Assembly: GCA_026390695.1 (NCBI GenBank)
Contig: JAPLFL010000123.1
Location: 1-64,000 of the forward strand
Direction of reading: 5' to 3'
DNA: 64,000 bases
Source: Candidatus Kapaibacterium sp.
Lineage (GTDB): Bacteria; Bacteroidota; Ignavibacteria; Kapaibacteriales; UBA2268
A program made the translations under genes and the position numbers. Shown here one piece after another: positions 13,342-58,373 of this stretch. Numbering within the stretch: the first letter of the stretch is position 1; each line of letters starts with the position of its first letter. The notes beneath the pieces were generated by a model. The model was not told the DNA's origin, did not search any database, and saw only the letters and a program-made list of their open reading frames with translations.

Positions 13342-13368
13342 ACAAAAAACGGGCATAGAAGCCCGTTT
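13342..13368 (-). terminator. Rho-independent terminator of the DUF2795 gene
   Basis: An 8-bp stem (AAACGGGC at 13347-13354 with GCCCGTTT at 13361-13368) and a 6-base loop. On the minus strand the stem is followed by a T-rich tract. It lies 24 bases past the stop of the DUF2795 gene. Confidence 0.8.
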
Positions 13369-13391: not shown

Positions 13392-13631
13392 TTAAAAATA
13401 CTGCTCTTCTTCATCATCGTTATAGAAATACTCTTCGTTAGCAGAATCTTCGTATTCTGGCCATAAGTCCTCCATTCCTTCAATTAGCTCTTCGGTATCA
13501 TCAAGCTCGACGATATTATCCAGGACTTGTTGAGGAGATCCGGTACGGCTTGCGTAATCAAATAGTTCTTCTCTGGTGGCTGGCCAAGGGGCATCCTGTA
13601 GATATTGAGCTAATTCGGGTGTCCAAAACAT
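13392..13631 (-). CDS. DUF2795 domain protein
   Basis: A 79-residue, very acidic protein. The segment LAQYLQDAPWPATREELFDYASRTGSPQQVLDNIVEL matches in pattern the DUF2795 family (quoted here by key parts: PWPATREELFDYA, then PQQVLDNI), followed by an Asp/Glu-rich tail ending DDEEEQYF. Small DUF2795 proteins are common as single genes in this phylum; the function is unknown. The gene stands alone between the GH92 gene (171 bases upstream) and its own terminator, which suggests a monocistronic transcript. Confidence 0.8.
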   Translation of the reverse strand: MFWTPELAQYLQDAPWPATREELFDYASRTGSPQQVLDNIVELDDTEELIEGMEDLWPEYEDSANEEYFYNDDEEEQYF

Positions 13632-47182: not shown

Positions 47183-50110
47183 TCAGAGAGTTTTAATTAC
47201 TACTGCTGTCATATCATCATATTGCGGCGCATCTTCAGTAAAATCACGAACGGATTTTACAATACATTCCATTAATTTTTCTGCACTTAATTGATAATTA
47301 TTTTCGATAACTTCGATAAATCTTGATTCATCAAAATCAACACTATTTTCATTTCGTGCTTCTAAAATTCCATCACTAATCAAAATAAATATATCTCCGG
47401 TGTTATATTCAACAATCATTTCTTCAAGGCTTTCCGAAAATAAACCAGTACTATCCAAACCCATCACTATACCTTTTGGAGTGTATTTAATGACCTTTCC
47501 GGTTGATATTTTATAACAAAATAAGGGCAAATGCCCTGCACGAGAAATCAATAATTGATTTTTAGCTGGATTTATTTTGGCCACAATTGCTGAAATAAAC
47601 GAACGTTTCTCAATTTGTCTGCTAACAAGCTGATTGGTTCTAATTAATAAATTTCGAGGTGATAGTTCATATTCATGTAAAGTACGAATAATGCCCTGAG
47701 TTTTTGACATGTAGAGTGCAGCCGAAGTCCCTTTTCCACTCACATCACCAACTATCACAGATAAAGATTTCTCAATATTTTCAGCTTTAGTTGTCTTATC
47801 AGAATTGATAGAAAAATGATTATCCTGATTAGTTAAAAAATCATAAAAATCGCCCCCGACTTCAAATGCAGGGATTGAGATGCCGGCGATATCCAATCCA
47901 ATAAAATTCGGCGTATTCTTTGGTAATGAAGCAAGCTGAATATTACGTGCAATTTCAAGTTCGTGCTTCATTCGTTCCTGTCTTGTCAGATCTTCATACA
48001 AAAAAGCATTTTCAACGGCTACTGCTGCACTAATAGCAATGGAATTAAGAAAATCGAAATCCTCATTATTGAATGGAGTTTCTGATAATTTATCTCCAAC
48101 GATCAGTGCTCCCAAGACTTTTGAACGTGAAAAGATAGGTATGATCCATTGAAATTGAAATTCAGATAATATCTTTTTCAGATTGTCGGGCAAATAATCA
48201 ACGCGTATGCTGCCTTTGAAAGGTTTCAATGATTTTGCAAAAATCTGGCCGGTAGAATGACAAAATTCTTTCAAATTCTTAGATTTGATGCCATAAAATT
48301 CGCATTCGGTTACTTTAAGTTCATCTTTAAAGAAGACAACGCCGACTCTTTTCAGATGTACAAGTTCAGCTAACTTTTCGACTATGATTACGGCTAAATC
48401 CTGCAAACAGCAACTTTCCATCAGCAGAGCCATTTTCGTTGAAGCATCCCGATAGTCAAATTTAGTACGGTAGAATTTTTTATCAATATAACGGAGTCCC
48501 TTCCTACGAAATTTAATTAATAAATAAGTTGAAATAACTGATACGATGATTAAAATAAATTTCTCATAATGCTGATTAGAAGCCACATCCATAGGATGAT
48601 CAATTAACTCGATACTTGATTTATTTATTTTTAAATTAGGTACCTGAAAGCTAAAACCCGAAACAATCCCTATAAAAATTAAAATCACCAGTATAATACT
48701 CATTTTCCATAAGTTAGAAAAGATAATATATTGAATGTTCTTTCTTAATTGAAAATTTAAATCCAACAATCGGTAGCGCCAGATTACATACAAATAAGAC
48801 AGTGGAATTAACGCAGGAATTGGTAATTTTACATAATCAAAAATATTTCTGTAAATCATCAAAGACTGAAAATTACTAATAATTAAATCTGCGATAACAT
48901 AAGTAGAAATAAATAAATACATTGACCAGCGAATAGATTTCCAGACTCTGGTTCCCTCATCATCGAATAATCTGCGATATATAAATCCAATTACTAAAAA
49001 GTATATGGATTCAATCATAACTAAAAAGCCCTTATTATGATCAATCTGATTAAATTCTTCCAGAGGTATGTCAAAGAAAACTCTGGCAGTATAAAGTGCA
49101 TAAACAAAACTTAGAAAATATGGAATTATTATTATCCATTTCTTCTTTAAAAGACCGGTTTTTTCTTTTGGGAAATAAAATATAGAATGAAAAAAAATCG
49201 GGAAGTAGAACACAACTGATAAAGTCATCAGAAAAAATCGTACAATCGAAAAAATATCAAGATTATGAGGTGAATTCATCGGTCCCATAATAAAACAGAA
49301 CCCGAATACGAACAATGAGAGTCCGACTAATCTGGCAGCTTTCAGATTAGGTTTTTTGTTTATTAGAAAAGTTCCTGTAAATAAGGATAATAAAAAAATT
49401 GCTAAAAAAAAGATTGAAATAATTGGCACTCCAAATTCGGCTAATTTTACCTTGAAATTATTATAATTTCCATCTCTAAGAATTTCATAATAAATTTCGT
49501 GACCGCTCTTTGAACTACGTAAAATAGAATCTGCATGATAAGCATTATTGAAGTTTTGCCCGTTTACCTTGGTAATCACATCTCCGGCTCTAAGTCCAGC
49601 TCTGTCGGAGGCACCTCCGGGTTCAACGGTAAAAATGATTGCCCCTGATTTCATTATAGTAAAATTTTCTGGAAACAGGTCTTTTTTAGCTACAAAATAA
49701 ACAAAGTAAGGGACTCTGTTATTTATTAACGCTTTGGGGCCATTTATCGAATTAAAAGAAAATGATGGCTGAAGTATATAAAGGACTGCACTATCCTTTT
49801 TTATTTTACTCAAATAAGAATTGAGGGCTTCAATATTTTTAACAACAAGTGAATCAATTCTAAAAAGCAAACAGCCTTTTGTTACAGAATCGCCGGGATT
49901 ATAGGTTGAGTCTGCAAAATTTGTCAGTACCCATCTGGCTGGAAAAGTGTTATTTACATAAATTTTTGAATAAACGTCTCGGTAAGCGTTTTCATCAGTA
50001 GTAGTCATACTGACTCTGAGGAAATAGTACAAGCCCATAGAAAACAGAACTGCACTAATTCCAAGGTAAATTATTCTATATTGATTAGCGGATAAATTTC
50101 TAATAGCCAT
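47183..50110 (-). CDS. PDZ-membrane-GAF-PP2C (SpoIIE-type) phosphatase
   Basis: A 975-residue signalling protein. An N-terminal membrane helix (~12-32) precedes a periplasmic part with a PDZ domain (~148-215, PGGASDRAGLRAGDVITKVNGQ). About seven to eight membrane helices lie at ~225-545. A GAF-like domain follows (~560-715, GALIVGDKLSE). The C-terminal PP2C/SpoIIE phosphatase (~745-975) has FEVGGDFYDFL, VIVGDVSGKGTSAAL, LISDGILEARN and YDDMTAVVIK, with the metal-binding Asp residues intact. RsbU/SpoIIE-type phosphatases often act on anti-sigma antagonists. No anti-sigma partner is adjacent. The PDZ-to-membrane-to-GAF arrangement suggests sensing at the membrane. Confidence 0.9.
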   Translation of the reverse strand: MAIRNLSANQYRIIYLGISAVLFSMGLYYFLRVSMTTTDENAYRDVYSKIYVNNTFPARWVLTNFADSTYNPGDSVTKGCLLFRIDSLVVKNIEALNSYLSKIKKDSAVLYILQPSFSFNSINGPKALINNRVPYFVYFVAKKDLFPENFTIMKSGAIIFTVEPGGASDRAGLRAGDVITKVNGQNFNNAYHADSILRSSKSGHEIYYEILRDGNYNNFKVKLAEFGVPIISIFFLAIFLLSLFTGTFLINKKPNLKAARLVGLSLFVFGFCFIMGPMNSPHNLDIFSIVRFFLMTLSVVFYFPIFFHSIFYFPKEKTGLLKKKWIIIIPYFLSFVYALYTARVFFDIPLEEFNQIDHNKGFLVMIESIYFLVIGFIYRRLFDDEGTRVWKSIRWSMYLFISTYVIADLIISNFQSLMIYRNIFDYVKLPIPALIPLSYLYVIWRYRLLDLNFQLRKNIQYIIFSNLWKMSIILVILIFIGIVSGFSFQVPNLKINKSSIELIDHPMDVASNQHYEKFILIIVSVISTYLLIKFRRKGLRYIDKKFYRTKFDYRDASTKMALLMESCCLQDLAVIIVEKLAELVHLKRVGVVFFKDELKVTECEFYGIKSKNLKEFCHSTGQIFAKSLKPFKGSIRVDYLPDNLKKILSEFQFQWIIPIFSRSKVLGALIVGDKLSETPFNNEDFDFLNSIAISAAVAVENAFLYEDLTRQERMKHELEIARNIQLASLPKNTPNFIGLDIAGISIPAFEVGGDFYDFLTNQDNHFSINSDKTTKAENIEKSLSVIVGDVSGKGTSAALYMSKTQGIIRTLHEYELSPRNLLIRTNQLVSRQIEKRSFISAIVAKINPAKNQLLISRAGHLPLFCYKISTGKVIKYTPKGIVMGLDSTGLFSESLEEMIVEYNTGDIFILISDGILEARNENSVDFDESRFIEVIENNYQLSAEKLMECIVKSVRDFTEDAPQYDDMTAVVIKTL

Positions 50111-50512
50111 AAATAAAAAAATAATTTACAAAAACTACCATTTACCATACGTAAAATAATAAAAAAAGTTATTATAGTAAATAAAGTAACAACTTTAAAA
50201 AACCGCTTCAGTTGTTTTTATCTTTGTTCTCTTTTAATCATAGAACAGATATTCTTGTTCTTTGTGCTTGCTGAACTGCCCGAAAACGAAAAATCTTTCG
50301 TAACGGAATTATAAAATCATCTTTGAACTCAGTAATTAATCTGCAATCAGGGAAATAATGGCAAATGGGTAATTGAAATTTATTAACATAAACTTTTAAC
50401 TACCCCTTACCCCATCGCCATCATTAAGCAAATTTTCAAACTCAATTTAATATTCATATCAAATTAAGATTGAAATTAATATCTAAAAAACTATTAAACA
50501 ATTTATCTTTAA
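50111..50512. other. Intergenic region, no gene recognised
   Basis: It separates the PP2C gene start and the acyl-CoA dehydrogenase stop, both on the minus strand. A short imperfect palindrome (near 50238-50262, GAACAGATATTCTTGTTC) resembles the other dispersed repeats. The rest is AT-rich, with one C-rich stretch near 50400 (ACCCCTTACCCCATCGCC). A TATCTTTG at 50219-50226 is on the wrong strand for any gene. Confidence 0.5.
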
Positions 50513-51676
50513 TTATTCAAAAGCACTAATTCCGGTTATATCATTTCCCAAAATCAAAGTATGTATATCATGTGTCCCTTCGTATGTACGCACTGATTCT
50601 AAATTCGCAGCATGACGCATAACCGGATATTCCCCTAAAATCCCATTTGCACCGTGTATATCGCGAGATATGCGGGCTGCTTGAATTGCTATATCTACAT
50701 TATTCCGTTTAGCAAATGATACCTGCTGCGGTGTTGCACGACCTTCGTCCATTAATCTACCAAGACGCCACGCAACCAATTGTGCCTTTGTAATTTCGGT
50801 AAGCATCCAGACCAATTTCTCCTGAACAATCTGGAAACCCGCGATAGGCTTGCCGAACTGAATTCGAGATTTTGAATAATCGAGAGATGATTCATAAACG
50901 GACATTGCAGCACCAATCACACCATACTGGATTCCGTATCTTGCCCGTGTAAGACAGCTCAGTGGCCCTTTCAGTCCATTAATATTCAATCGGTTTCCAT
51001 CAGGAATTTCAACGTCATCAAAAATCAATTCTGACGTTACTGAGGCTCTGAGAGAATGCTTCCCGTGCATTTCCGGGGCTGTAAACCCCTTCATACCCTT
51101 TTCAACTAAAAATCCTGTAACAACTCCGTCCAATTTTGCCCATACCACAGCAAGGTCAGCCAATGTGCCATTTGTTATCCACATTTTTGCACCATTAAGC
51201 AAATATCCGCCATCAATCTTTTTGGCATTAGTTACCATTCCACCTGGATTTGAACCAAAGTCAGGCTCGGTTAGTCCAAAACAGCCAATAGCTTCGGCTC
51301 TTGCAAGTTTAGGCAACCATTTCATCTTTATTTCTTCGCTGCCATACTGATTAATTGGGAACATTACCAAAGAATTTTGAACAGAAGCAAATGAGCGAAC
51401 ACCCGAATCACCACGCTCCAATTCCTGCATTGCAAGCCCATAGCAGGTGTAATTGGCTCCGGCTCCACCATATTTTTCATCGATTGTTATTCCGAACAAT
51501 CCCAAATCAGCTAATTTCTGAGCTAAGTGCATTGGAAATATTCCTTTTTGATATGCATCTTCTATGATAGGTAAAACTTCAGAATCAGTAAAATCCCGAA
51601 CAGTTTGTCTTACTAATAATTCTTCTTCAGTATAAAGTTCGTCTAAAAAATAATAATCAGGTGCGGAAATTGGCAT
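50513..51676 (-). CDS. Glutaryl-CoA dehydrogenase-like acyl-CoA dehydrogenase
   Basis: About 387 residues. The ATG at 51676 (MPISAPDYYFLD) is preferred over the upstream TTG at 51688. It is an FAD acyl-CoA dehydrogenase. CFGLTEPDFGSNPGGM, KMWITNG and RTYEGTHDIHTLILG (catalytic Glu in YEGTHD) are present. The VRSFASVQNSLVMFPI block, with its Arg-Ser pair, and the following GSEEIKMKWLPKLA match glutaryl-CoA dehydrogenase (GCDH) closely. GCDH oxidises and decarboxylates glutaryl-CoA to crotonyl-CoA in lysine and tryptophan breakdown. Family membership is secure; the substrate is probable. It is divergent from nusA. Confidence 0.88.
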   Translation of the reverse strand: MPISAPDYYFLDELYTEEELLVRQTVRDFTDSEVLPIIEDAYQKGIFPMHLAQKLADLGLFGITIDEKYGGAGANYTCYGLAMQELERGDSGVRSFASVQNSLVMFPINQYGSEEIKMKWLPKLARAEAIGCFGLTEPDFGSNPGGMVTNAKKIDGGYLLNGAKMWITNGTLADLAVVWAKLDGVVTGFLVEKGMKGFTAPEMHGKHSLRASVTSELIFDDVEIPDGNRLNINGLKGPLSCLTRARYGIQYGVIGAAMSVYESSLDYSKSRIQFGKPIAGFQIVQEKLVWMLTEITKAQLVAWRLGRLMDEGRATPQQVSFAKRNNVDIAIQAARISRDIHGANGILGEYPVMRHAANLESVRTYEGTHDIHTLILGNDITGISAFE

Positions 51677-51734
51677 AAGAAACTCCAAAATAAAAGTAAT
51701 TTAATAAAAAAAATATAAATATTGTATATATCTA

Positions 51735-51765
51735 TTTGATTTGATATGTAAATTGATTATTTTTG
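51735..51765 (+). promoter_or_regulatory. Bacteroidota-type promoter of the nusA operon
   Basis: TTTG (51735-51738), a 19-base spacer, then TATTTTTG (51758-51765): a full match to TTTG-N19-TAnnTTTG. The transcript would start near 51771-51773, about 75 bases before the nusA ATG. Confidence 0.7.
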
Positions 51766-51774
51766 TATTGGTTC

Positions 51775-51796
51775 AACGGGCAATTGCCCGTTTTTT
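51775..51796 (+). promoter_or_regulatory. 18-bp perfect palindrome plus T tract at the nusA operon start
   Basis: AACGGGCAATTGCCCGTT (51775-51792) is perfectly self-complementary, and the plus strand continues TTTT to 51796. It looks like an intrinsic terminator, yet the predicted transcription start is only 2-4 bases before it. It may instead be an operator at +2 to +20, an extreme 5'-end RNA hairpin, or an attenuator. Confidence 0.7.
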
Positions 51797-51844
51797 GTTA
51801 AAAATATTTTTTTTAATTCCTGTATAATTCGGAGAGTAAAAATA

Positions 51845-53164
51845 ATGCGACGCCGCAAAGCAAAAAATAAAATCGACAAAAAACTCATCATCGATGCATT
51901 TGCAGAAATGGCAAAATCGAAAAATATCGACCGTGACCTTTTACAAGGTATAGTCGAAGAAACTATTTCAATGATTGTCAAAAAGAAATACGGTACTGAA
52001 GCCAATTTCGATATAATTGTAAATATGGAAAAAGGAGATATCGAAGTATATCTTATGCGTACCGTTGTGGACGAACCATCTGATCCATCTCTTGAGATAT
52101 CATTAACAGAAGCACATCGTTATGATGACGGTTACACACTTGGTGATGAATTCATTGAAGAAATCACTCTTGATAATATCTCCGATAGTTTTGGGCGACG
52201 CCTAATATCGCTTGCAGGGCAGAGTTTGAACCAAAAAATCCGTGATGTTGAAAAAGATAATATTTACAATGAATATGCTTCCAAAGTAGGTGAGATCATC
52301 ATTGGTGAAATTTATCAGGTACGTCGCAATGACTTGCTTATCATGCACAACAAGACTGAAATGAGGCTCCCAAGAGAAGAACAAATTCCTAATGAACCTT
52401 ACAAATACAAAAAAAATCAATCCGTCAAAGCTATTATTAAAGAAGTTAAACGCGCCGGAACCGGCGGTCAGCCTGAAATAATCCTTTCACGTGCTTCAGA
52501 AGATTTTCTGGCTCGTTTATTTGAAATTGAAATCCCAGAAATTTATGATGGAATTATTCAAATTAAAGCCATAGCACGTGATCCCGGAGAGCGTTCAAAA
52601 GTTGCGGTTATGTCCTTGGATGATAGGGTCGATCCGGTAGGAGCCTGTGTTGGAATGAAGGGAATCCGTATCCATTCTATAGTTCGTGAATTAAATAACG
52701 AAAATATTGATTTAATTCAATATGCCGATGAACCAAAACTCTACATTGGGAGAGCATTATCACCTGCAAAAGTATTGGAAATCAATGTACAACATGAAAT
52801 AAAAAGCGCAACAGTCCTTGTTCCTGACGATCAGGTCTCGCTCGCTATCGGAAAAAATGGTCAAAACGTTAAATTAGCTTCACAATTAACGGGATATTCA
52901 CTGACCCTTATCAAAGAAGGTGGAGAAGACATCGAATTAGTTGAATTTAAAGATGAATTGGGGAATACCCTGTTAAAACAATTGGCTGATTTGAATATTA
53001 GTACTGTAAGAGAGTTTCTTGATTCAGATATTGGGACACTTCTTGCTATTCCTGATTTATCCAAAGATATGCTTCTGGAGCTTCGTTCCATAATGCTAAA
53101 TGAATTGGATGAAGAAGAAATCGAAGAAATGCGTGAAAAAATCATGAATTTTTCAATTAAATAA
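51845..53164 (+). CDS. nusA: Transcription termination/antitermination factor NusA
   Basis: A 439-residue RNA polymerase-associated factor. The N-terminal RNAP-binding domain (~1-125) is followed by an S1 domain (~135-205, GEIIIGEIYQVRRNDLLI). Two KH domains follow (~230-370, including DPVGACVGMKGIRIHSIV and LAIGKNGQNVKLASQLT). A C-terminal helix-hairpin-helix region ends the protein (~375-439). It lacks the acidic repeats found in proteobacterial NusA. It is the first gene of the cluster with infB, rbfA, truB and ribF. rimP, which usually precedes nusA, is absent here: the gene upstream is a divergent acyl-CoA dehydrogenase. Confidence 0.96.
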   Translation: MRRRKAKNKIDKKLIIDAFAEMAKSKNIDRDLLQGIVEETISMIVKKKYGTEANFDIIVNMEKGDIEVYLMRTVVDEPSDPSLEISLTEAHRYDDGYTLGDEFIEEITLDNISDSFGRRLISLAGQSLNQKIRDVEKDNIYNEYASKVGEIIIGEIYQVRRNDLLIMHNKTEMRLPREEQIPNEPYKYKKNQSVKAIIKEVKRAGTGGQPEIILSRASEDFLARLFEIEIPEIYDGIIQIKAIARDPGERSKVAVMSLDDRVDPVGACVGMKGIRIHSIVRELNNENIDLIQYADEPKLYIGRALSPAKVLEINVQHEIKSATVLVPDDQVSLAIGKNGQNVKLASQLTGYSLTLIKEGGEDIELVEFKDELGNTLLKQLADLNISTVREFLDSDIGTLLAIPDLSKDMLLELRSIMLNELDEEEIEEMREKIMNFSIK

Positions 53165-53178
53165 TATAATCCATTAGT

Positions 53179-56100
53179 ATGTCTGATAATAAAATCTTAT
53201 TATTCAAAATTGCCAAAGAAATCAATATTGGCAAAGAAGCAATTATTGAATTTCTGAAGCTCAAAGGTTTTACTGTAGAAAACAAACCTACAGCAGCTCT
53301 TTCTGCTGAAATGGTTGATGCTATCTTTGAAAAGTTCAAAAGAGAAAAACAAGTCGCCGAAAAACAAAGAGAAAAAGTCCAAAAGCATAAGGACACAAGG
53401 TTTGTACCGGAAGTTAAGATTAAACGACCTGACGAACTTCCGCTTGCTATACCGGCAAAATCTGCTCCACTGGCTTCAACTCCAAAATTTGAAATGGTAC
53501 AGATGAGTGCCCATAGTGATTCTGAAAAACCTCATCATCATTACCCAGAACCTAAACATATTGTTGCCGCTCCTGCACCTGCTCCTGCACCTGCACCTGA
53601 ACCAGCTCCTATTCCTGTCACAGTTCCTCCGCCAACTAAAGAAGAACCCGTTGAACCTACCAAAAAGCGTGAAGGTTTAAAAATATTAGGTAATATTGAA
53701 TTACCTACCGAACAAAAAAGATCTGATAAATCAAAGTCGGATCAATCTAACAAACAAAGAAGAGGAAGGCAAGATCAAGCTAAGAGCGCAACAAAACAAG
53801 TTCCACAAAAAACAGAAGCTGAAAAAATCGAAGAAATTAAACAGTCTAATGATCTTTTAAATCAAAAGAGAAAAGAAGGTAAACTAAAACTCGAAGATTT
53901 GAAAGGACTGGAATTATCTATTGTTTCTGATTCAAACAGACCGCACGTAGAGCCAAGAATCAAGCAAGTAAAACCGCCTGAATCACCTAAAATTATTGAA
54001 CCTGAAATTGCTGAAAAAATTGAAGAAATTCCGATTTCAACTTTAGAAGAAATTGAAGCAATCGCACTCAGTGAAGAAGATAAAGATAACGCTGGTGAAG
54101 AAACAGGAGAAGCCGGTGCAGATAAAAAAGGAAGAAAACGGCGTAAAAGAAAGAAAGTAGTCGAAATCGAATTTGAACCCGGAGCTGCTCCTAAATTGCG
54201 CGGGTTGATGATTGTTGGTAAAATTGATCTTAATGCAAAACCTGAGCATCTTATTCCTCCCAAAGAAATTAAGAAAAAGCTTGCTACAGGTGAGGTTGAA
54301 GAGCTGGATGATAAAGGAATAAAAATTAAAAAGAAAATTAAAGGAAAAGATAAACTTGTACCTATTAAAGAACCTGAGAAAATTGATGATAAAAAGCGGA
54401 AGAAGAAGAAAAAAGGTGTACGTGAACAATTTAGTGAATCCGATGTCGATCGCGCGATTCGTAAAACTTTAGCAGGTATGGAAATTGCATCCCAGGCCTC
54501 AATCAGAAGCCGTTTACGCCAAAAACGTAAACTCGAACGAGAAGAAAAAGAAGCACAGATAATGATCGAACGCGATCGCGAATCAAAGATTCTCAGATTA
54601 ACAGAATTTGTTACAACCGCTGACCTGGCGCATATTATGAATGTATCTCCCAATGATATTATTTTGAAATGTATGCAGCTTGGCTTGATGGTTACAATTA
54701 ATTTACGGCTTGATAAGGAAACTATAGGCGTTATTGCAGATGATTATGGCTATGAGTGCGAATTTATCGATAATATTGAAGCTGTATCAGAATTCTTAGA
54801 CGAAGAAGATGATGAAGAAGATTTGCTGCCACGCCCTCCTATCGTCACTATTATGGGACACGTAGATCATGGCAAAACTTCATTGCTCGATTATATCCGC
54901 CATGCAAATGTAGTTGCAGGAGAAGCCGGTGGAATTACCCAGCATATTGCAGCTTATCATGTGGAATTACCCAGCAAAAAATCGATTACATTTTTAGATA
55001 CTCCCGGTCACGAAGCATTTACAGCCATGCGTGCTCGTGGAGCTCAGGTTACTGACATAGTTGTTCTTGTAGTTGCAGCTGATGATTCGGTTATGCCTCA
55101 GACAATTGAAGCTATAAGCCATTCTAAAGCAGCCAGTGTCCCAATCATTGTTGCAATAAATAAAGTTGATAAACCTGATGCAAAACCTGACCGTGTTCGT
55201 CAGCAATTAGCCGATTACGGAATATTGTCAGAAGACTGGGGTGGTAAAAACCAAACAGTTGAAATTTCTGCAAAATTCGGTCAAAATGTTGAAGTTTTAT
55301 TAGAAAAGATTCTTCTTGAATCCGAAATGTTAGAATTAAGGGCAAATCCTGACAGAATTGCTCAGGGAACTGTTATCGAAGCACACGTTGCACGTGGACT
55401 TGGTACTGTTGCTACTGTAATTGTACAAAAAGGGACACTTAAAATAGGAGATTCATTCGTCGCCGGTGTTACCTCCGGTAAAGTTCGTATTATGTTAGAT
55501 GAACGTGGCAATAGGATTATGGAAGCATATCCTTCAACTCCGGTAGGTGTTATTGGATTTGATGGTCTGCCTGAAGCCGGAGATATGGTACAGGTTGCGG
55601 AATCCGATGTACAGGCTCGTTCCATAGCTAATCAAAGATTAATACTTAAACGTGAGCAGGAGCTACGTAAGAAGCATGTTAGCCTTGATATAATATCTGA
55701 ACAAATTCATCAAGGAACAATTAAAGATTTAAATCTTATCATCAAAGGTGATGTTGGTGGCTCCGTTGAGGCTTTGAGTGACTCATTACATAAATTATCT
55801 ACTGACGATGTACGTGTAGCGATCATACATAAAGGAGTTGGCTCAATCAGTGAAAATGACGTTATGCTTGCAATTGCTTCCAAAGCCGTTATTATAGGAT
55901 TTCAGGTTAATGCAACTGGAAAAGCAAGAAAGATTGCTGAAACAGAAGAAGTCGATATAAGATTATATAGTATTATTTATGACTGTATAAATGAAATCAG
56001 ATTAGCCCTTGAAGGCATGCTCACACCGGAATACAAGGAAGTAATCACGTCTTCGGTTGAAGTACGCAGGTTATTCAAAATTGGTAAAGTTCAGGTTGTT

Positions 56101-56337
56101 GCCGGTTGTTATGTGCTGAATGGCAAAATCACAAGGAATGATAAAGTAAAACTAATGCGAGCAGGTCTTCCGGTATTTACTGGAACAATAGATACTCTCA
56201 AGCGAAATAAAGATGATGCCAAAGAAGTTGAAATGGGCTTTGAGTGCGGTATAACTCTTAACGGTTATAATGATCTCAGAGAAGGAGATTTAATCGAAGG
56301 CTTCCAGATTCAGGAAATAAGAAAAACTCTTAAATAA
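53179..56337 (+). CDS. infB: Translation initiation factor IF-2
   Basis: A 1052-residue GTPase that brings initiator tRNA to the 30S subunit and promotes subunit joining. An N-terminal IF2_N-like domain (~1-55, IAKEINIGKEAIIEFL) is followed by a long Pro/Ala- and Lys/Glu-rich linker (~75-450), which includes a low-complexity APAPAPAPAPEPAP stretch. The G domain follows with GHVDHGKT (~560), DTPGHE and NKVD. Domains II, III and IV complete the C-terminus (for example EYKEVITSSVEVRRLFKIGK). It starts 14 bases after nusA. Confidence 0.97.
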   Translation: MSDNKILLFKIAKEINIGKEAIIEFLKLKGFTVENKPTAALSAEMVDAIFEKFKREKQVAEKQREKVQKHKDTRFVPEVKIKRPDELPLAIPAKSAPLASTPKFEMVQMSAHSDSEKPHHHYPEPKHIVAAPAPAPAPAPEPAPIPVTVPPPTKEEPVEPTKKREGLKILGNIELPTEQKRSDKSKSDQSNKQRRGRQDQAKSATKQVPQKTEAEKIEEIKQSNDLLNQKRKEGKLKLEDLKGLELSIVSDSNRPHVEPRIKQVKPPESPKIIEPEIAEKIEEIPISTLEEIEAIALSEEDKDNAGEETGEAGADKKGRKRRKRKKVVEIEFEPGAAPKLRGLMIVGKIDLNAKPEHLIPPKEIKKKLATGEVEELDDKGIKIKKKIKGKDKLVPIKEPEKIDDKKRKKKKKGVREQFSESDVDRAIRKTLAGMEIASQASIRSRLRQKRKLEREEKEAQIMIERDRESKILRLTEFVTTADLAHIMNVSPNDIILKCMQLGLMVTINLRLDKETIGVIADDYGYECEFIDNIEAVSEFLDEEDDEEDLLPRPPIVTIMGHVDHGKTSLLDYIRHANVVAGEAGGITQHIAAYHVELPSKKSITFLDTPGHEAFTAMRARGAQVTDIVVLVVAADDSVMPQTIEAISHSKAASVPIIVAINKVDKPDAKPDRVRQQLADYGILSEDWGGKNQTVEISAKFGQNVEVLLEKILLESEMLELRANPDRIAQGTVIEAHVARGLGTVATVIVQKGTLKIGDSFVAGVTSGKVRIMLDERGNRIMEAYPSTPVGVIGFDGLPEAGDMVQVAESDVQARSIANQRLILKREQELRKKHVSLDIISEQIHQGTIKDLNLIIKGDVGGSVEALSDSLHKLSTDDVRVAIIHKGVGSISENDVMLAIASKAVIIGFQVNATGKARKIAETEEVDIRLYSIIYDCINEIRLALEGMLTPEYKEVITSSVEVRRLFKIGKVQVVAGCYVLNGKITRNDKVKLMRAGLPVFTGTIDTLKRNKDDAKEVEMGFECGITLNGYNDLREGDLIEGFQIQEIRKTLK

Positions 56338-56353
56338 TTATTAATTAAAAAAG

Positions 56354-56704
56354 ATGTCTATACGAACAGAAAAAGTTGCAAGTGTGATAAAAAGAAGTAT
56401 AGCTCGTCATATTTCCGAATTAGCTATGGGTAATTCGGCAGGATTGGCTACAGTTACCACTGTAAGACTTTCAGATGATTTACAAACAGCCAGAATTTAT
56501 ATTAGTATTTACGGCGGAACCAAGACTCCCGGCGAGTTCATTACCATACTTGAAATGCACAGAGGCGAGATCAGGCATATTATTGGGAAGAGCATTAAAC
56601 TTAGATCCACTCCCGATATAAAATTCTTTATTGACGACACATTAGATCAGATCGATCATATTCAGAAATTACTCAATTCGGTGAAGGAGGTAAAAGCAGA
56701 TTGA
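56354..56704 (+). CDS. rbfA: Ribosome-binding factor A
   Basis: A 116-residue 30S maturation factor with a KH-like fold that helps process the 16S rRNA 5' end. Family features are RTEKVASVIKRSIARHISEL and the later LSDDLQTARIYISIYGG. It starts 16 bases after infB, and its stop overlaps the truB start by 4 bases. Confidence 0.94.
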   Translation: MSIRTEKVASVIKRSIARHISELAMGNSAGLATVTTVRLSDDLQTARIYISIYGGTKTPGEFITILEMHRGEIRHIIGKSIKLRSTPDIKFFIDDTLDQIDHIQKLLNSVKEVKAD

Positions 56705-57432
56705 GCAGCTTCGGAATTTTAGATAAATTTTCAATAAATAATCTGGACTCATGGCTTCAAACAAGTTTAGCAAATGGTGGAATAGCACTAATTGATAAGG
56801 AAAAGTCATGGACATCATTCGATGCTTGCGCTAAACTTAAAGGCATTACAAGAATTCCTAAAGTTGGACATGCAGGTACCTTAGACCCGCTTGCTACCGG
56901 ATTATTGATTATATGTTTCGGCAAAGCTACAAAAAGTATTTCAATATTTCAGGATTATAAAAAATCCTACTTTGCTCGTATCAAACTCGGTGCTACAACC
57001 AGAACTCTCGATGCCGAACTTGAAGAAGAGAATATTTGTGATATTAGTAATTTGAAAGAAGAAGAAATTTATCAGTTTGAAAAGAAGTACAGAGGCGAAA
57101 TGTCGCAGATGCCTCCAATTTTTTCATCAAAAAAGATTAATGGCAAACGATTGTATAAGTATGCCCGTAACAATGAAGAAGTGCAGCCGAAGCCAAGTAT
57201 AATAAATATCTATGATCTGAGTATAAAAAAAATAGAGTTGCCCTTTGTTGATGTAGAAATTGAATGCTCAAAAGGTACTTATGTACGCTCCATTGCTCGT
57301 GATATAGGAATAGACCTTGGAGTGGGGGCATATCTTGCCGATTTACGCAGAACCGCAATCGGAGAATATAAAGCAGATAATGCCATAAAAATTTCTGAAA
57401 TTCAGGAACAAATCAAAAATCCAAATATATGA
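56701..57432 (+). CDS. truB: tRNA pseudouridine(55) synthase
   Basis: A 243-residue enzyme that makes pseudouridine-55 in the T loop of tRNAs. The catalytic Asp is in HAGTLDPLATGLLI. KSYFARIKLGATTRTLDAE, and KGTYVRSIARDIG near the C-terminus, are conserved blocks. The start is an unusual TTG whose last two bases overlap the rbfA stop (TTGA), a coupled-translation arrangement. The C-terminal PUA-like domain is missing or minimal, as in many short TruB proteins. The stop overlaps the ribF start by 4 bases. Confidence 0.94.
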   Translation: MSSFGILDKFSINNLDSWLQTSLANGGIALIDKEKSWTSFDACAKLKGITRIPKVGHAGTLDPLATGLLIICFGKATKSISIFQDYKKSYFARIKLGATTRTLDAELEEENICDISNLKEEEIYQFEKKYRGEMSQMPPIFSSKKINGKRLYKYARNNEEVQPKPSIINIYDLSIKKIELPFVDVEIECSKGTYVRSIARDIGIDLGVGAYLADLRRTAIGEYKADNAIKISEIQEQIKNPNI

Positions 57433-58373
57433 GAATATTTTACAATTTTGATGAAACGATTTATCATCGCGAAACTATTGTTACTGTTGGGACTTTTGAT
57501 GGTGTGCATCTTGGTCATAAGTCAGTAATTAAAAGCCTTCTTGATTATTCCCGTAATGAAGATATTCGCCACGTTCTGGTAACGTTTGACCCTCACCCAC
57601 AGTTAGTTCTTGCAAAAGAAAATAAAAAACCAATTAAGATTCTTACAACTCTTGAAGAAAAATTTCAATTACTCGAGGATCTCGGTGTTGAAAATGTACA
57701 AATCATCCCATTCAGTTTGGATTTTGCACAAATTAAACCGGAAATTTTTGTGAAGGAATATTTAGTAGATAAAATTGGAATAAATCGAATTTTAATTGGT
57801 TATGATCATTTGTTCGGGCAGAATAGAAGCGGTAATTATGAATTATTGCAGCGTTTGGGACAGCAATTCGGTTTTTCAGTAGATCAGGGGAAAGCATTTT
57901 CCGATTCCGATACAATTATTTCAAGTACAAGGATTAGGAATGCTATCGAAGTGAAAAATCTGGAATTAGCAAACCAAATGCTTGGTTATGATTATTTCTT
58001 ATTAGGAGAAATCGTTCATGGTCACGCTCGTGGCGCCGGACTTGGCTATCCAACTGCAAATGTGATACCTCTTGAACCGGAAAAACTAATCCCTGCAAAC
58101 GGTATTTATTTTATTTCAGCTTTTATAGGCAACCGAAAATACTATGGCATGGCCAATGTCGGTACCAGACCAACTTTCGAGAATAACGGCAAAATATTAG
58201 TCGAAGCATTTTTCTTTGATTTCAATAATGATATTTATGATTTAAGAATTCAGATTGAATTCATAAAGTATATACGTGAAGAAATAAAGTTCGATAACTC
58301 CGAACAATTAATCGAAGCAATTAAACAAGATGAAGTTATTTGCAGAAATTTAATAAATAACTTTTTAGATTGA
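57429..58373 (+). CDS. ribF: Bifunctional riboflavin kinase / FAD synthetase
   Basis: A 314-residue enzyme that phosphorylates riboflavin to FMN and adenylates FMN to FAD. The N-terminal nucleotidyltransferase has GTFDGVHLGHKSVI and SSTRIRNAI. The C-terminal kinase domain has GHARGAGLGYPTANV and VGTRPTFENNG. Length is typical (about 310). The start overlaps the truB stop by 4 bases (ATGA), so translation is coupled. Confidence 0.95.
   Translation: MRIFYNFDETIYHRETIVTVGTFDGVHLGHKSVIKSLLDYSRNEDIRHVLVTFDPHPQLVLAKENKKPIKILTTLEEKFQLLEDLGVENVQIIPFSLDFAQIKPEIFVKEYLVDKIGINRILIGYDHLFGQNRSGNYELLQRLGQQFGFSVDQGKAFSDSDTIISSTRIRNAIEVKNLELANQMLGYDYFLLGEIVHGHARGAGLGYPTANVIPLEPEKLIPANGIYFISAFIGNRKYYGMANVGTRPTFENNGKILVEAFFFDFNNDIYDLRIQIEFIKYIREEIKFDNSEQLIEAIKQDEVICRNLINNFLD

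Follow-up and report, generated by a model that had tools for sequence, protein, structure and literature searches.

What role does a perfect 18-bp palindrome play when it is placed between the predicted promoter of the nusA operon and its first gene? The question is raised by the window analysed here, the whole stretch of 64,000 nucleotides from Candidatus Kapaibacterium sp. (contig JAPLFL010000123.1 of assembly GCA_026390695.1), in which the initial annotation had noted a promoter-like TTTG-N19-TATTTTTG followed by the palindrome and six T residues. Inspection of the sequence bears out this description. The palindrome, AACGGGCAATTGCCCGTT, occupies positions 51775-51792 and starts 9 bases past the promoter-like element; the T6 run is contiguous with it, the first two T residues being common to the stem and the U tract; and the ATG of nusA (51845) is found 52 bases past the palindrome end. 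The Bacteroidota promoter consensus is TTTG/TAnnTTTG, and the geometry of the -7 element was used to place the nusA transcription start. The features required for the argument are as follows:

51735-51738, plus strand: TTTG, a -33-like promoter element, with an N19 spacer to TATTTTTG (sequence)
51758-51765, plus strand: TATTTTTG, a -7-like promoter element (TAnnTTTG; sequence)
51769-51772, plus strand: predicted transcription start, placed from the -7 geometry
51775-51792, plus strand: putative terminator hairpin AACGGGC-AATT-GCCCGTT, with a 7-bp stem and a 4-nt loop (fold, conservation)
51791-51796, plus strand: T6, the U tract (sequence)
51831-51834, plus strand: GGAG, a possible nusA ribosome-binding site (sequence only)
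51845-53164, plus strand: nusA, first gene of the putatively regulated operon (ORF; Pfam NusA_N, KH_5)
53179-56337, plus strand: infB (ORF; Pfam IF-2, GTP_EFTU, IF2_N)
56354-56704, plus strand: rbfA (ORF; Pfam RBFA)
56701-57432, plus strand: truB (ORF; Pfam TruB_N)
57429-58373, plus strand: ribF (ORF; Pfam FAD_syn, Flavokinase)
50513-51688, minus strand: acyl-CoA dehydrogenase gene, the divergent upstream neighbour (ORF; Pfam)

Folded as RNA, the palindrome forms seven pairs with a predicted stability of -11.5 kcal/mol (z -3.93), and none of 200 shuffles was equally stable. A fold of the 80-nt window leader contains this hairpin and a separate weak downstream stem, with no competing fold in this one sequence. 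The 18-mer AACGGGCAATTGCCCGTT is a single site in the 4.63-Mb genome, with up to two mismatches allowed. A simple terminator scan of positions 48000-56000 returned the nusA-leader hairpin among six candidates, against 5.4 in shuffles, and by itself proves nothing, there being no excess over shuffles. The background was also measured on divergent gene pairs, using the window and 11 further stretches of its own genome (275,968 bases) and a crude gene caller. Only one of 34 such leaders, that of nusA, has a terminator on the sense strand no more than 200 nt from the start; the antisense count in the same 34 leaders is also one. It is because the hairpin is the sole such case among the 34 leaders sampled from its own genome, and is conserved in relatives, that we place it above chance.

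The GGGC/GCCC arms were also considered as a mark unique to the nusA leader, which was rejected because the genome has 12 such sites that carry a T run. The arms of the nusA leader recur on the minus strand at 13345-13364 (AACGGGC..GCCCGTTTTTTG), where they form an ordinary 3' terminator downstream of a 79-aa ORF (13392-13631, minus strand). A GGGC..GCCC terminator furthermore ends an RNA-like element of ~150 nt with at least four copies in the same genome (L115, L117, L120 and L121, on contigs C111, C22, C69 and C94) and others in the same family (L155, L160, L167 and L174). In an alignment of eight copies, 23 of the 40 predicted pairs show at least one two-sided pair-preserving change, and several copies are located just before an ATG. 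The element had no match in Rfam 15 at E up to 0.1 and is a candidate for an unclassified structured RNA.

A NusA search was positive in 56 of 60 genomes, our own included; within the window's family (G000-G035, 36 genomes), nusA was matched in 32 and its upstream region was complete in 31, the remaining one (G033) ending at a contig edge. The initial annotation had made its proposal depend on conservation upstream of nusA in close relatives, and such conservation is what we observed, the hairpin being present in all 31 complete leaders. The exact GGGC..GCCC core occurs in 29 of them, and where its letters change (GGGC..GCCT in G030, GGAC..GTCT in G027) the core pairing is preserved. TAnnTTTG is found within 60 nt upstream of the core in 30 leaders (all save G008), at a gap of 7-29 nt, and a -33-like TTTG (three or four of four letters matching, 17-21 nt spacing) in 26 of the 31. 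A run of at least five T residues follows the hairpin in 30 leaders, being broken in G018 (2 T), and is always on the nusA strand. The nusA ATG is 55 nt from the GCCC core in the window; in the family, this distance ranges from 24 to 178 nt, with two of the 31 beyond 130 nt.

The four core pairs hardly vary within the family, which leaves only slight covariation there, while among the outer pairs only pair -1 rises above shuffles (paired in 22 of 31 leaders, a count reached by 7 of 2000 shuffles). These pairs were counted with a core-anchored script, since a MAFFT alignment of the leaders misplaced the 5' arm in several rows. The near-invariance of GGGC/GCCC in the family could mean that the sequence itself is recognised and that the hairpin is not a plain terminator.

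An operator at the start site was one of the alternatives proposed initially; as a DNA site for a dimeric repressor, it would be suggested by a perfect 18-bp palindrome adjoining a promoter. Among the 31 leaders, however, the gap from GGGC to GCCC varies between 4 and 17 nt, the palindromic centre is not conserved, and the T run keeps to the nusA strand. The perfect palindromy of the window hairpin is incidental: its AATT loop is self-complementary by chance, and the loops of most relatives differ. We regard the operator as scarcely credible and rejected it on half-site spacing that is variable rather than fixed; comparison of the leaders points to an RNA terminator hairpin as most likely.

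Such a hairpin could simply end a transcript arriving from upstream, the outcome by which the initial annotation would have been refuted. Its stem and T run do resemble the 3' terminators of this genome, including the one that carries the same arms at 13345-13364. Nevertheless, the acyl-CoA dehydrogenase gene is divergent, so that there is no co-directional gene directly upstream for the hairpin to end. The gene on the upstream side (taken as the longest ORF) is likewise divergent in 25 of the 31 family loci, the window's own included, co-directional in five and absent in one, and the promoter-like element just upstream of the hairpin in 30 of 31 leaders also speaks against such a transcript. 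The terminator of an upstream gene was rejected on gene orientation, and we consider termination of any transcript from upstream highly improbable. A 5' hairpin shielding the nusA mRNA from decay, also proposed initially, would agree with a position a few nucleotides from the predicted 5' end. A stabiliser needs no U tract, yet the T run of at least five residues is kept in 30 of 31 leaders, as is the U tract in clades with other arms (see below), and we judge this role very unlikely.

With a probability of roughly 0.75, we propose that this promoter-proximal intrinsic terminator attenuates the nusA operon, and that the control is most likely negative feedback exerted by NusA. The hairpin, the U tract and the promoter-like element, with their strand, position and conservation, are established by sequence comparison; from these we infer the start site, the termination event and NusA as the controlling factor. 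The nusA-infB-rbfA-truB-ribF transcript would start ~3-6 nt ahead of the terminator. Once RNA polymerase had made ~28-32 nt, the hairpin would form within or at the exit channel. Having reached the U tract, the polymerase would either stop or read through into the nusA operon, the output of which would be set by the fraction reading through. NusA, the first product, would stimulate termination at the hairpin, and a high NusA level would thereby lower its own transcription; an antiterminator partner would not be needed. Among the alternatives raised at the outset, autoregulation by NusA at the hairpin is likely the one that fits. A terminator so near to the start had been called odd in the initial annotation. 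It is not: the predicted terminated RNA of ~28-32 nt is close to the 31 nt at which termination was mapped at the rimP-nusA start in Streptococcus agalactiae, according to the transcript data of PMC4448216, and PMC2965389 describes a published family of such attenuators.

The same attenuator might be controlled otherwise, for instance if RNA chaperones of the cold-shock response melted the hairpin, or if read-through depended on the general speed of RNA polymerase or on the NTP state. CspA-type proteins antiterminate in the E. coli operon, which counts in favor of the chaperones. This operon is also described as cold-induced, with terminators before rimP (PMC6511841). Against such control, NusA feedback is directly supported in B. 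subtilis, as related in the review PMC12288461, and with rimP lost, the operon product that remains as a candidate regulator is NusA; we consider the chaperone or polymerase-speed version unlikely. The terminator might also lower the output of the operon by a constant proportion without sensing anything, and the single hairpin, with no conserved alternative fold in the window leader, would be in keeping with such constitutive trimming. This appears distinctly improbable, considering that the terminator persists phylum-wide at the operon of a termination factor and that feedback is reported or proposed in other phyla (PMC12288461, PMC6511841 and PMC4448216, as far as these accounts go).

How widely the terminator persists was determined at rimP, the usual first gene: of 118 Bacteroidota genomes, 116 have PF02576, and both of those that lack it are members of the window's family. 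A scan of the 260 nt preceding the RimP domain detected a terminator on the sense strand in 90 of 116 leaders with a first setting (antisense 5/116, far-upstream 3/114) and in 109 of 116 with a second, which allowed a longer loop and fewer GC pairs with a stem of at least 6 (antisense 6/116, far-upstream 5/114, shuffle mean 3.7/116). The settings thus missed 26 and seven leaders, respectively, two of those seven having been found by the first. With the first setting, a terminator precedes rimP in 25 of 29 families; of the 90 leaders, 66 have a G-rich 5' arm and 24 a C-rich one. The arms vary among clades, with pairing preserved (ATGGGC/GCCCAT, TCGCCC/GGGCGA, GTGGGG/CCCCAC and GAGGGGAC/GTCCCCTC), and clades with other arms retain the U tract. 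As the scan picks paired hairpins by design, this diversity of arms is no independent test of covariation, and the claim rests on the controls for strand and position. Across the phylum, the swapping of arms speaks against recognition of a specific sequence. Sequence comparison at this scale argues for conservation of the pairing and not of the GGGC letters, although the letters are nearly fixed within the window's family.

In that family, the operon starts with nusA itself. A RimP_N match is absent from all 18 family genomes searched, and profile searches gave no rimP match in the window's own genome. Eleven of 12 sister-family genomes, in contrast, possess RimP_N, directly upstream of nusA by coordinates. 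A wider search of the family with PF02576 gave a match in one of 54 genomes (G060), in an ORF that begins like RimP and continues into a different C-terminal part, which we read as PurD-like. This match is probably contamination or misassembly, and was discounted because the RimP-like start is joined to another protein and the neighbours are not those of the nusA operon. It appears, then, that rimP was lost from the whole family, seemingly as one lineage event.

The sister families carry the same hairpin before rimP, in 10 of 13 cases by a crude scan and in all eight same-order genomes of the phylum scan; at least one of the three misses of the crude scan (G045) reflects a limit of that scan, since the phylum scan found it. 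Because the hairpin stands before rimP in the sister families and before nusA in the family that lacks rimP, these comparisons indicate that the leader belongs to the operon start and stayed on nusA when rimP went. Its retention argues for NusA over RimP as effector, an argument that rests on a single natural experiment, rimP having apparently been lost once. Whether the nusA-operon leader of Bacteroidota amounts to a minimal NusA sensor, a bare terminator within ~30 nt of the start on which NusA acts purely through hairpin termination, without sequence-specific recognition or RimP, seems to us evenly balanced: the arms are swapped between clades, which would dispense with the former, and the leader survives the loss of rimP, which would dispense with the latter.

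Comparison with known systems begins with the rimP-leader, ranked first among the attenuators of a 302-genome survey (Naville and Gautheret 2010, PMC2965389). As described there, it consists of a GGGc...gCCC terminator and a U stretch, without an antiterminator, 4-130 nt before the first gene of rimP-nusA-infB; the hosts named are Firmicutes and Gammaproteobacteria, and the regulator named is likely NusA, or possibly RimP. The GGGC..GCCC stem, the T6 run and the 55 nt from core to ATG in the window all agree with this description. The differences are that the window leader sits on nusA rather than on rimP as first gene, and that related Bacteroidota clades use other arms, including C-rich first. 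The corresponding Rfam family of the Gammaproteobacteria, RF01770, is a two-hairpin element of 102 positions, whereas the window leader has one hairpin; the latter gave no match to RF01770 at the gathering cut-off and none at E up to 10, and the E. coli control leader scored 102 bits. Other Rfam candidates, DapZ (E 0.13) and rliF (E 0.83), fell short of their cut-offs and appear to be fortuitous matches to a terminator. In the E. coli K-12 rimP leader, two hairpins with opposite arms occur (CCCCGA first, then GGGC first), and these are the same two orders that separate the Bacteroidota clades; the distal hairpin is GGGCTTTAGGCCC followed by T7, directly before rimP.

Individual operons provide closer parallels. 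The review PMC12288461 reports that NusA of B. subtilis stimulates termination in its own leader; this is likewise an intrinsic terminator in the 5' leader of the NusA-encoding operon, but the NusA dependence reported there is predicted here, and the rimP leader measures 180 nt (PMC2965389) against the ~75 nt we infer for the window. NusA is not always pro-termination, as it lowered termination in the B. subtilis rplJL leader described in PMC4538822. The S. agalactiae operon gbs0413-gbs0418 (rimP-nusA-infB), with termination 31 nt from the start as mapped by RNA-seq and with NusA feedback proposed (PMC4448216), shares with the window a terminator within ~30 nt of the start of the same operon, and differs in phylum, in the presence of rimP and in having both start and end mapped. 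For E. coli, PMC6511841 describes two terminators ahead of rimP and states that NusA regulates its own operon. Within the phylum, rimP of Flavobacterium psychrophilum is preceded by a structured 5' element that has no Rfam hit and is conserved in its family (PMC9723704); it belongs to the same operon start as the window leader, although the available text of that report holds no mechanism for the element. Our literature search found no account of a rimP-less leader, nor of a nusA/rimP terminator in Bacteroides.

Hence, the window leader is most likely a rimP-less variant of the rimP-leader attenuator, ordinary in kind, and it is filed as a variant rather than as a plain member because rimP is not its first gene. 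What is new is a family that lacks rimP and has kept the leader on nusA, which is a useful new argument on the effector. The loss of rimP with retention of the leader is a natural experiment pointing to NusA, one that is not found in the accessible part of PMC2965389. If the proposal is true, it would answer a question open since 2010, namely which operon product acts at the rimP-leader, and the control of a general termination factor by a terminator would be a simple feedback and, judging by its spread, an old one.
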